Assembly: GCA_002356455.1 (NCBI GenBank) | Contig: AP017968.1 | Coordinates: 620,001-684,000 of the forward strand | Length of the DNA: 64,000 bases | Reading direction: 5' to 3' | From: Fusobacterium varium | GTDB taxonomy: Bacteria > Fusobacteriota > Fusobacteriia > Fusobacteriales > Fusobacteriaceae | Shown here: positions 10,888-13,955 of the stretch, piece after piece | Position numbering within the stretch: position 1 is the first letter of the stretch | Layout: the number at the start of each line of letters is the position of its first letter | Notes under the pieces: model-generated | Databases searched by the model: none | Told to the model about the DNA's origin: nothing | What the model saw: only the letters and a program-made list of their open reading frames with translations | Made by a program: the position numbers and the translations under genes

Positions 10888-11640
10888 CTATTTTGTCAGA
10901 TTTTGCGCTTTAAAATCTTCAAATCTTTCAGGAAAATATTTTTCAACAAGTTCAGAATACTCTTTAGTTGTCTTTAATTCAATTATAGCGTCGCTAAATT
11001 TTTCTGCAAGTTCTTTATCAGATTTTCTAAAAGCAATAGAAGCACCAGGTTTAGGATCAATAATAGAATCTATTTTTTTAATTCTGTCCATAGTGTTAAG
11101 ATATTCTTTTCCAGAGTTGTCTGCAATAATTACACAATCCACTTTTCCATTTTGAAGATCCATAAGAGCATTTGTAAAAGTATTGTATAATTTAGGGATA
11201 CTTCCATTATTTATAGCAAATTGCTCCTGCATACTTCCCATTTGAACTCCAGCAGTCTTTCCTTGTAAATCTTCTTTTGTTTTAAAAGTACTGTTTTCAT
11301 TAACTATAACATAGTGTTCAGAAGTAAAGAAAATATATGGTATAGAGAAAGACACAGCTTTTTGTCTTTCAGGAGTCTGAGACATCCCAGCAATAACAGC
11401 ATCTATTTTTTTCATTTGAAGAGCAGGAAGCAGTCCGTCAAAAGACATATTTACCCATTCTATTTCATAACCTAATTTTTTTCCAAGTTCATCCATTACC
11501 CCAATATCAAATCCAACCATTTTACCATCTTCAAGATATTCATAAGGTTTGAACTCAGCGTTAGTTCCAACATAAAGTTTTTTAGCTGCAAAAGAAAGTG
11601 TTGATAAAAGTAGTGTAAATATAAGTACAAGTTTTTTCAT
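10888..11640 (-). CDS. Periplasmic amino-acid binding protein (SBP family 3), copy 2
   Basis: A 250-residue family-3 solute-binding protein with a signal peptide (cleavage likely after SFA near residue 18) and no lipobox cysteine, so a free periplasmic protein. Typical segments are LYVGTNAEFKPYEYLEDGKMVGFDIGVMDELGKKLG, DAVIAGMSQTPERQKAVSFS, and PGASIAFRKSD (an Arg that usually contacts the ligand carboxylate). It is last in the operon after the M20 hydrolase gene and a paralogue, 11 bp downstream of it. No permease or ATPase gene is adjacent. Polar amino acid or peptide binding is likely; the exact ligand is unknown. Confidence 0.9.
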   Translation of the reverse strand: MKKLVLIFTLLLSTLSFAAKKLYVGTNAEFKPYEYLEDGKMVGFDIGVMDELGKKLGYEIEWVNMSFDGLLPALQMKKIDAVIAGMSQTPERQKAVSFSIPYIFFTSEHYVIVNENSTFKTKEDLQGKTAGVQMGSMQEQFAINNGSIPKLYNTFTNALMDLQNGKVDCVIIADNSGKEYLNTMDRIKKIDSIIDPKPGASIAFRKSDKELAEKFSDAIIELKTTKEYSELVEKYFPERFEDFKAQNLTK

Positions 11641-11651
11641 TTATTATCCCC

Positions 11652-12401
11652 CTATTTTTTAAATGCTTCTTTAAATTCTTCAGTTCTTTCAGGAAAGTAT
11701 TTTTCCAATAATTGAAGATAAGTCCCATCATCTCTTAACTTTAAAATAGCTTCATTTACGGCTTTTACAAGGTCAGTTTCTCCTTTTCTAAATGCTATAG
11801 AAGCACCAGGCTGACTGTCTACAACAATGTCAACTTTTTTTAGGCCTTTCATATTTTCAAGATAAGCATTTCCAGATACATCTGCAATGATAACAGCAGA
11901 GATTTTATCTTGCTGAAGATCCATCAAAGCTCCAGTCCATGCATTATATATCTGAGGTATTCCACCTAATGCAATAGTAAATTCTTCTTGAATAGTTCCA
12001 ATCTGAACTCCGACTTTTTTATCTTTTAGCTCCTCTTTTTTGACAATAGAACTATTTTCATTGACTATAACATAATGCTCAGATTTAGTAAACATATAAG
12101 GCATTGAAAAATCAACAGCCTTTTGTCTTTCAGGAGTTTGAGACATCCCAGCAATAACAGCATCCACTTTGTTCATCTGCAGAGCAGGAAGCAGTCCATC
12201 AAATCCCATATTCACCCAATGAACTTCATATCCTATTTCTTTTCCAATGGCATCCATAAAGTCAATATCGAACCCAGTTATTTTATCTCCTTCAAGATAC
12301 TCGTAAGGCTTAAATTCAGCATTAGTTCCCACATAAAGTTTTTTAGCTGCAAAAGAAAGTGTTGATAAAATCATCATAAATAATATAATAAGTTTTTTCA
12401 T
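11652..12401 (-). CDS. Periplasmic amino-acid binding protein (SBP family 3), copy 1
   Basis: A 249-residue paralogue of the next gene, sharing the YVGTNAEFKPYEYLE and AGMSQTPERQKAV segments and a signal peptide ending near SFA. The start was moved to the ATG at 12401, after GGGAGGAAAATTT; the upstream start lies before the ribosome-binding site. The two copies diverge mainly in the middle lobe, which suggests different ligand preference or domain exchange. It follows the M20 hydrolase gene by about 40 bp in the same operon and lacks neighbouring membrane components, so it must share a permease encoded elsewhere. Confidence 0.9.
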   Translation of the reverse strand: MKKLIILFMMILSTLSFAAKKLYVGTNAEFKPYEYLEGDKITGFDIDFMDAIGKEIGYEVHWVNMGFDGLLPALQMNKVDAVIAGMSQTPERQKAVDFSMPYMFTKSEHYVIVNENSSIVKKEELKDKKVGVQIGTIQEEFTIALGGIPQIYNAWTGALMDLQQDKISAVIIADVSGNAYLENMKGLKKVDIVVDSQPGASIAFRKGETDLVKAVNEAILKLRDDGTYLQLLEKYFPERTEEFKEAFKK

Positions 12402-12441: not shown

Positions 12442-13620
12442 CTACATTTTTTTAACATTTTTGTTAAATTCATCTTTTATTTTTTTTAATAATTCAGCAT
12501 CAGTGAAAATATCCATAGCTGTAAGTGCCATTGATATAGCAGATTCTTCCATTCCTTTATAAGCTTCTGGAGCTATAGATGCACTTGCAAATTCTACACT
12601 GTGACCAGTCAAGTGTGCTGTTGTAAGTGGGAAATATGGATGTATAGCTGGGCAGCAGTGGCTTACATCTCCCATATCTGTAGATCCTCCTGATTCTTTG
12701 CTTCTGATGTCAGTAACACCTAAAGATTTTAGATTTTTTTCATAAGCTGCTGAAAGTTTTTCATTAGTAACAAGATCAGCAAAGCTAGTTTCATAGTTTG
12801 TTGTCTCTAAAGTAGTTCCACTGGCAAGAGCAGCGCCTTTAGCACAATTTTTAACTCTTTCTACAAGCCCTTTTAAATAATCTAATGTTTTAGCTCTTAC
12901 ATAAAAGTTAGCTACTGCTAAGTCAGGGATTATATTAGCTGCTTTTCCTCCATTAGAGATGATTCCATGTATTCTGGCAGTTTCTAAAGTCTGCTGTCTC
13001 AGAGCATTAATAGAGTTAAATAAAATTAATACTCCATCTAAAGCATTTATACCTTCATGAGGAGCTCCAGCAGCATGGGCAGTTTTACCTTTGAATGTAA
13101 ACTGGATAGCTTCCATAGCTTGAGAAGTACCGCTTCTGTGATGAGCCTCTCCAGTAGGATGAGCAGCCATAGCTATATCAATATCATCAAAGACACCAAG
13201 AGCAGCCATATGTACTTTTGCACCATTAGTTTCTTCAGCAGGAGTACCAATTATCATTATTTCTCCAGCTGTATCTCCCATTATTTCTTTAGTAAGAATA
13301 CCAGCAGCTACACTTGTAACACCAAATATGTTATGTCCGCAACCATGACCAATCCCAGGAAGAGCATCATATTCAGCAAGAATAGCTACTTTAGGACCAG
13401 GTTTTCCAGTACTGTACTTTCCAATAAAAGAAGTAGGAAGCCCTGCAAAGTTTGTTTCAACTGTAAAACCATGTTTTTTTAACATTTCAGTATGTGCTGC
13501 ACAAGCTTTAAATTCCTGTAATCCCAGTTCAGGATTATTGTATAGATATTCGTTTAATTCTTTGAATTCCTCTGCATATTTTGAAAAAAGTTTTGAAAGT
13601 TTTGCTGTCATATTTTCCAT
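12442..13620 (-). CDS. M20-family amidohydrolase (aminoacylase/AbgB-like)
   Basis: A 392-residue zinc amidohydrolase of peptidase family M20, amidohydrolase branch. Metal-binding residues are visible in LPGIGHGCGHNIFG (near 90-103), the GTPAEETNGAK glutamates (near 135) and AAHPTGEAHH. The lid domain has the GKTAHAAGAPHEG motif. Family members hydrolyse N-acyl amino acids, aminobenzoyl-glutamate or dipeptides. There is no signal peptide, so it acts in the cytoplasm. The ATG at 13620 follows GGAGGG. The two binding proteins downstream suggest that the substrate or product is an amino-acid derivative taken up by them. A regulated leader precedes the gene. Confidence 0.88.
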   Translation of the reverse strand: MENMTAKLSKLFSKYAEEFKELNEYLYNNPELGLQEFKACAAHTEMLKKHGFTVETNFAGLPTSFIGKYSTGKPGPKVAILAEYDALPGIGHGCGHNIFGVTSVAAGILTKEIMGDTAGEIMIIGTPAEETNGAKVHMAALGVFDDIDIAMAAHPTGEAHHRSGTSQAMEAIQFTFKGKTAHAAGAPHEGINALDGVLILFNSINALRQQTLETARIHGIISNGGKAANIIPDLAVANFYVRAKTLDYLKGLVERVKNCAKGAALASGTTLETTNYETSFADLVTNEKLSAAYEKNLKSLGVTDIRSKESGGSTDMGDVSHCCPAIHPYFPLTTAHLTGHSVEFASASIAPEAYKGMEESAISMALTAMDIFTDAELLKKIKDEFNKNVKKM

Positions 13621-13662: not shown

Positions 13663-13702
13663 AAAATAAAAAGTCAGTATAACATTCGAGTGCTACACTG
13701 AC
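13663..13702 (-). terminator. Intrinsic terminator/attenuator in the M20 leader
   Basis: On the minus strand GTCAGTGTAGCA (13702-13691) pairs with TGTTATACTGAC over a CTCGAA loop (12 bp with two G-U pairs), followed by TTTTTATTTT. It lies 43 bp before the M20 start codon and about 220 nt after a likely promoter, the position of an attenuator. Confidence 0.85.
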
Positions 13703-13920
13703 ATTGATTTAAAAATATGATCATGGGTTATATAAAAAATATAAGCCCAAATCTTCAAAAATAATTAAGATATGATCTAAAATTTATTCATCAAAAAGCC
13801 ATAATGTCATTTAGCAGACAAAAAAGATAAGGTATTCAATATTTTTATTGTTTTTTCTGTTCCTTATCCTTAGTTTGTTAAATAACATTCTGAACTTCCC
13901 CCTTTTTTTAATTTCTTGTT
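13703..13920 (-). ncRNA. Structured leader RNA, candidate riboswitch or attenuator
   Basis: This is a 342-bp gap between phoU and the M20 gene. Minus-strand transcription from about 13920 would make an RNA with two clear elements. The first is a long hairpin: AATGTTATTTA (13889-13879) pairs with TAAATGACATT (13813-13803), continued by a 15-bp inner stem that includes GATAAGG/CCTTATC. The second is a three-way junction: GATCAT (13777-13772) with ATGATC (13724-13719) closes ATCTT/AAGAT and a GGG(c)TTATAT/ATATAACCC hairpin (13748-13725). The terminator follows. I do not recognise any known riboswitch consensus (not a T-box, TPP, purine or lysine element). It could also be an independent small RNA. 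Confidence 0.55.
13811..13888 (-). CDS. Possible 25-codon leader peptide
   Basis: ATG at 13888 with GGGGGA nine bases upstream opens 25 codons ending in TAA, giving a basic N-terminal half and a hydrophobic end (YLIFFVC). Its stop codon abuts another ATG (13810) opening eight codons that include one Trp. Both lie inside the structured leader, and the start codon is buried in the long stem. It may be a real leader peptide or chance; no homologue is recalled. Confidence 0.3.
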   Translation of the reverse strand: MLFNKLRIRNRKNNKNIEYLIFFVC

Positions 13921-13926
13921 GTTTTA

Positions 13927-13955
13927 GGTATATCATATGAAAATATAATTGTCAA
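13927..13955 (-). promoter_or_regulatory. Promoter of the leader RNA
   Basis: On the minus strand TTGACA (13955-13950) is 17 bp from TATACC (13932-13927). It begins eight bases past the phoU stop, so the leader and M20 operon can be transcribed independently of the pst operon. Confidence 0.6.

Follow-up and report, generated by a model that had tools for sequence, protein, structure and literature searches.

The leader of about 250 bases that separates phoU from the M20 amidohydrolase gene on the minus strand of Fusobacterium varium is very probably a ribosome-mediated transcription attenuator of the trp/his type, which would sense arginine through charged tRNA-Arg. It contains a short open reading frame (ORF) with two early AGG codons, overlooked in the preliminary description of this locus, and this ORF sits inside the long hairpin that the description had reported. 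From the sequence we infer that the ORF is translated, that ribosomes stall at AGG and that arginine governs the response. Most likely, the cell uses the leader to turn on genes for arginine acquisition when arginine is short.

The features of the window, meaning the whole stretch of 64,000 nucleotides that was analysed, are collected in Table 1. The sigma-70-type promoter just past phoU, the long interrupted hairpin, the GATCAT/ATGATC arms and the 12-bp terminator with its T-rich DNA upstream of M20 were all found as previously claimed. Similar -35/-10 pairs precede the orthologous leaders. The folding energy of the 306-nt region is -56.8 kcal/mol, compared with -42.8 +/- 4.1 in 100 dinucleotide shuffles (z = -3.4), none of which was as low. 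Between 13400 and 14200 there are 2 terminator-like sites, one of them the leader terminator, against 0.1 expected. The statement that no known class is recognisable also held, since scans of the leader with Rfam 15 at gathering and relaxed thresholds matched no family. At E <= 10 only far sub-threshold snoRNA and miRNA noise was returned for the region, and no T-box covariance match was among the results. The leader is single-copy in the 4.1-Mb genome G000; G008-G010 have almost the same sequence, and more diverged versions occur elsewhere.

Table 1. Coordinates of the leader, of the genes behind it and of related leaders (window positions unless a locus is named).
Feature	Position	Strand	Remarks
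Promoter, sigma-70-type, TTGACA (13955-13950), 17 nt, TATACC (13932-13927)	13927..13955	-	Downstream of phoU; sequence
Shine-Dalgarno AGGGGG of leader ORF	13898..13903	-	Sequence; most orthologues AAGGAGG-type
Leader ORF MLFNKLRIRNRKNNKNIEYLIFFVC, then stop; 25 codons	13811..13888	-	Sequence; orthologous ORFs in 3 genera
Candidate regulatory codons AGG-ATA-AGG, codons 7-9 (AGG at 13870-13868 and 13864-13862)	13862..13870	-	AGG enrichment
Segment 1, ORF start, after Shine-Dalgarno to codon 9	13862..13896	-	Pairs with segment 2
Segment 2, ORF end, stop codon and downstream bases	13797..13832	-	Pairs with segment 1 or 3
Three-way junction, arms GATCAT (13777-13772) and ATGATC (13724-13719)	13719..13777	-	Between segments 2 and 3
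Hairpin motif, window copy (modified)	13712-13770	-
Segment 3, predicted antiterminator partner AATGTCAGTGTAGCA	13691..13705	-	Overlaps terminator 5' arm; nascent-RNA folding
Intrinsic terminator, 12-bp stem 13702-13673 (segments 3:4) and T-rich tail	13663..13702	-
M20 amidohydrolase (TIGR01891), first gene of operon	12442..13620	-
Lys/Arg/Orn (ArtJ)-like substrate-binding protein (SBP)	11652..12401	-
Second Lys/Arg/Orn (ArtJ)-like SBP	10888..11640	-
Hairpin motif, L250	1309-1375	+
Hairpin motif, L229	921-980	+
Hairpin motif, L264	525-571	+
Hairpin motif, L225	1648-1696	+
G000 leader before permease-ATPase-SBP (amino-acid ABC transporter), MKFRNNRIRNLLIEN, then stop			AGG at codons 4, 7, 9
G000 leader before SBP-argG, beginning MLKALKLRNRKYTT			AGG at codons 8, 10, 40
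G000 leader before SBP-Fe-ADH-aminotransferase (sbp4), beginning MLFKNLRSMPQLN			AGG at codons 7, 22; one early AGG only; weakest

The ORF reads AGGGGG, 9 nt, and then ATG TTA TTT AAC AAA CTA AGG ATA AGG, ending in TGC TAA. The long hairpin arises when this ORF folds back: the stretch from immediately past the Shine-Dalgarno sequence through the AGG codons forms its 5' side, and the ORF end, the stop codon and the next bases form its 3' side, giving 30 pairs (13896-13862 with 13832-13797) and -25 kcal/mol as a duplex. The end of the ORF is also complementary to the 5' arm of the terminator, a second relation absent from the preliminary description.

Orthologues of the M20 gene occur in 39 of the 98 Fusobacteriota genomes. 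A Shine-Dalgarno sequence and a short ORF precede M20 in all g1, g4 and g5 genomes with upstream DNA read. A terminator lies between the leader ORF and the first gene in 19/19 M20 leaders scanned, a count that leaves out G028, whose leader is about 440 nt upstream of M20; terminators are likewise found in the leaders of the other operons. The M20 genes of the g3 genomes read and of G047 are without such an arrangement. One leader-like ORF, in G031:C11, was rejected as the start of a long gene. In G028 (L161, upstream of M20; L265), a GC-richer segment (beginning TTGACGGCCGTATGAGTTCTACGAGC) with the look of an insertion is placed between the AGG leader and M20.

Across three genera of Fusobacteriaceae, the Shine-Dalgarno sequence, the short ORF, the early AGG codons and the terminator are kept, while the peptide and RNA sequences diverge. 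The M20 leader peptides begin, for example, with MFFSRLRIR, MFFSKTRIR, MLLRTLKLR, MLSSILKLR, MMLLRRRQLN, MLKNTRRQR or MKLSVRRQ. What stays constant is the AGG codon, usually two of them, at positions 4-9. AGG is enriched about 25-fold across 15 M20 leaders, relative to a background of 63,658 codons where it makes up 0.3% of all codons and about 11% of Arg codons. The ten g1/g4 leaders have 20 AGG in 252 codons against 0.8 expected (P ~ 1e-21) and the five g5 leaders 11 in 116 against 0.4 (P ~ 2e-13), although these P values overstate the significance because the species are related. For most genomes the ORF was picked by its Shine-Dalgarno match before codons were considered, and the ORFs of the G000 clade were taken by homology. 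The Leu codons CTA and TTA are likewise enriched. This conserved ORF with arginine codons agrees with the earlier suggestion of an amino-acid-type signal.

As for RNA structure, the leaders are predicted to form mutually exclusive 1:2, 2:3 and 3:4 pairings, conserved together with the short arginine-codon ORF. Covariation of the stems among homologues had been proposed as a check, and the outer 1:2 stem does covary, with a score above 500/500 shuffles and 93% of cells paired, against 41-58% in slid controls. The 2:3 pairing of the M20 leaders is 88% paired, against 22-52% when slid, and is largely invariant, with one double change; because these columns hardly vary, covariation argues neither for nor against the antiterminator. 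For the window leader taken alone, the antiterminator duplex is no more than modestly better than shuffles (p = 0.10).

Each leader was also folded as a nascent RNA whose 3' end lies in the terminator loop, for three situations: no ribosome, a ribosome at the last early AGG, and a ribosome at the stop codon. The probability that the 5' arm of the window leader's terminator pairs with upstream RNA is 0.02 without a ribosome, 0.76 with one at AGG and 0.28 with one at the stop. Pooling 27 leaders, the arm is sequestered at 0.63 when stalled. Stalled minus free gives 0.283 (shuffles 0.029 +/- 0.042) and stalled minus stop 0.343 (shuffles 0.052 +/- 0.040), and for each of the two 0/20,000 pooled shuffles reach the observed value. 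Pooled nascent folding thus predicts an antiterminator that excludes the terminator and is freed by a stall at AGG. The partner segment mostly falls 60-90 nt past the leader ATG, although the operons and terminators are unrelated. The same pooled test was negative for four g13/g14 leaders, which had been chosen by eye. In equilibrium (partition-function) folding of the full transcript the terminator is mostly favoured in every ribosome state; since it nearly always wins there, only truncated (kinetic) folding reveals the switch. Blocking by a ribosome at the stop is not predicted for the permease leaders of the G000 clade or for G002, as their stop codon is placed well before segment 2.

The three-way junction between segments 2 and 3 has a more limited distribution. 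Its arms are present in the window, as had been claimed, but it is kept only in the G000/G008/G009/G010 clade and is not conserved in the orthologous M20 leaders of G007, G011, G027, G029 and the F. mortiferum group. In G010 a single compensatory change (GGG/CCC to GAG/CTC) speaks for the second hairpin of the junction. The junction holds a version (AAGATT..GGG/CCC..ATGANCATA) of a conserved hairpin motif, AAAGATT[G/A]G..stem..[C/T]ATGAGYATAAA, that lies between segments 2 and 3 in transporter-type leaders. Among 11 aligned leaders of that type the stem varies with compensatory changes and the flanks AAAGAT and TGAGYATA are near-invariant. The hairpin recurs in the sbp4 leaders and, modified, in the window junction, and it has no match in Rfam. 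A kink-turn reading (possible tandem G.A pairs) was dropped, as the outer helix is without convincing pairing. The role of the hairpin may be to keep the two arms of the antiterminator close, to make polymerase pause or to bind some partner. A possible but doubtful extension is that the transporter, sbp4 and window leaders are composites of an arginine-codon attenuator and a separate conserved RNA element. If so, the element, by binding a protein or a metabolite or by making RNA polymerase pause, could turn the leader into a two-input switch, a kind that has not been described. Some permease leaders also have a second hairpin and T-run (TCAATAGAT..ATCTATTGATTTT) before the main terminator (L250 near 1400-1430; L264 near 600-640), possibly tandem terminators.

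In terms of the controlled genes, the best matches of the window SBPs are the Gln/Arg ancestor AncQR, ArtJ and related proteins; these matches fall below equivalog cut-offs, so arginine is a likely and not a proven ligand. Pattern and homology searches of G000 found three further leaders of like build (Table 1). Protein homology identified the permease gene in 12/12 genomes of the genus. Upstream of every permease operon examined, and of the one in the g5 genome G034, there is a leader whose AGG codons fall around codons 3-9 and which carries a terminator; outside the G000 clade the transporter and argG leaders were mostly found by their AGG pattern and are therefore a biased set. Identities of ArgG and ArgH are above NCBIfam cut-offs. 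In the two further genera g13 and g14 the M20-SBP operon continues through argH, another SBP and argG (L169:1779-8203, L170, L171, L168), in some with an octopine-dehydrogenase-family gene between, a content that suggests salvage of an arginine conjugate or opine. A search for ArgR (PF01316) found it in 0/12 genomes of the genus and in 9/14 control genomes. Next to the M20 operon, on the plus strand (window:4019-10803), there is an operon resembling one for sugar-acid degradation, with gluconate-type permease, tartronate-semialdehyde-reductase-, glucarate-dehydratase-, aldolase-, glycerate-kinase- and aldo/keto-reductase-like ORFs, named by eye only.

In the proposed mechanism, RNA polymerase would start at the promoter past phoU and a ribosome would begin the 25-codon ORF. 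With ample arginine, the ribosome would pass the AGG codons, reach the stop and cover segment 2, and the 3:4 terminator would form. When arginyl-tRNA is short, it would wait at the AGG codons 7-9 and cover segment 1, leaving segment 2 to pair with segment 3; no terminator would form and the M20 and binding-protein genes would be transcribed. Without translation, 1:2 would pair and termination would follow. The same device on the amino-acid ABC transporter operon and on the binding-protein-argG operon would constitute an arginine regulon, and a fourth operon (binding protein and aminotransferase) is probably under it as well.

The recurrence of basic R/K-x-R motifs among the leader peptides also fits nascent-peptide arrest, where an Arg-x-Arg peptide (LRIR, LKLR, RRQ), with a co-factor such as free arginine/ornithine or a macrolide, would stall in the exit tunnel and switch the same RNA, in the manner of SpeFL/ORF34 or the Arg-Leu-Arg leaders. 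Arg-x-Arg peptides are known to stall ribosomes and Arg-Leu-Arg uORFs are tied to drug-induced stalling (PMC8632094), Salmonella orf34 senses arginine by consecutive Arg codons (PMC6386406), and the Leu-codon enrichment points the same way. However, the peptides vary greatly from one operon or genus to the next (MFFSKLRIR, MLLRTLKLR, MMLLRRRQ, MKFRNNRIR, MLKALKLRNR), the position of AGG shifts, and the targets are arginine genes, not resistance genes. Since the peptides diverge and the AGG codon, not a peptide motif, is the constant, we favour tRNA charging and regard arrest as unlikely.

The preliminary description left the choice between a riboswitch and an attenuator; the attenuator stands, and the riboswitch is unsupported because the junction, its would-be aptamer, is not conserved in orthologous leaders. 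A metabolite riboswitch, in which the junction or its hairpin motif binds a ligand and drives the terminator with the ORF incidental, could draw on the conserved flanks and compensatory stem changes shared by the transporter, sbp4 and (modified) window leaders. It is very improbable, as Rfam gives no match, orthologous M20 leaders that lack the junction have the ORF, AGG codons and terminator, and the AGG enrichment and ORF conservation would be left unexplained. Reinitiation, possible for leader genes (PMC4833913), would suit an ORF that is a conserved small protein or a translation enhancer, with the hairpin before M20 merely terminating an upstream transcript. Several points make this reading extremely improbable: the leader starts from a promoter of its own past phoU, the terminator separates it from M20, the enrichment of AGG is about 25-fold, and unrelated arginine operons show the same arrangement. 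The arginine attenuator remains our preferred explanation.

If it is correct, Fusobacteriota gains an arginine regulon whose attenuation is coupled to translation, in a genus that yielded no ArgR and in a phylum where RNA-based amino-acid control has been barely described. It would also give an arginine-related role to the M20 amidohydrolase, its binding proteins and the amino-acid transporter. The attenuator reading yields codon-level predictions, testable by simple reporter or RNA-seq experiments.

When a survey from 2010 added a leader-peptide attenuator from Firmicutes, those known to it were confined to Proteobacteria and Actinobacteria (PMC2965389). In the open-access literature that we searched, we found no report of attenuation in Fusobacterium. 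The kind of attenuator is known, and the amino acid, phylum and four-operon regulon appear to be new. Classic attenuators (trp, his, ilv and leu of Proteobacteria and Actinobacteria, besides a his leader predicted for Bacilli) share with this leader an ORF with codons of the operon's amino acid, the 1:2/2:3/3:4 pairings and an intrinsic terminator. Here, in contrast, the amino acid would be arginine, the phylum is Fusobacteriota, the leader has its own start codon inside the 1:2 stem, the regulatory codons are only 7-9 codons in, and the regulon would comprise uptake and argG operons where ArgR was not found. The T-box riboswitches also sense tRNA charging and control a terminator, but here the sensing apparently occurs via a translated ORF, and no Rfam T-box matches. 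ArgR/AhrC regulons similarly control arginine transport and argG-type genes, although through a DNA-binding protein, for which the 12 genomes have no PF01316 match. Finally, orf34/SpeFL of Salmonella speF is alike in being a short ORF with consecutive arginine codons that senses arginine; it acts on speF with Rho and RNase G, whereas the leader described here has an intrinsic terminator and a different peptide.
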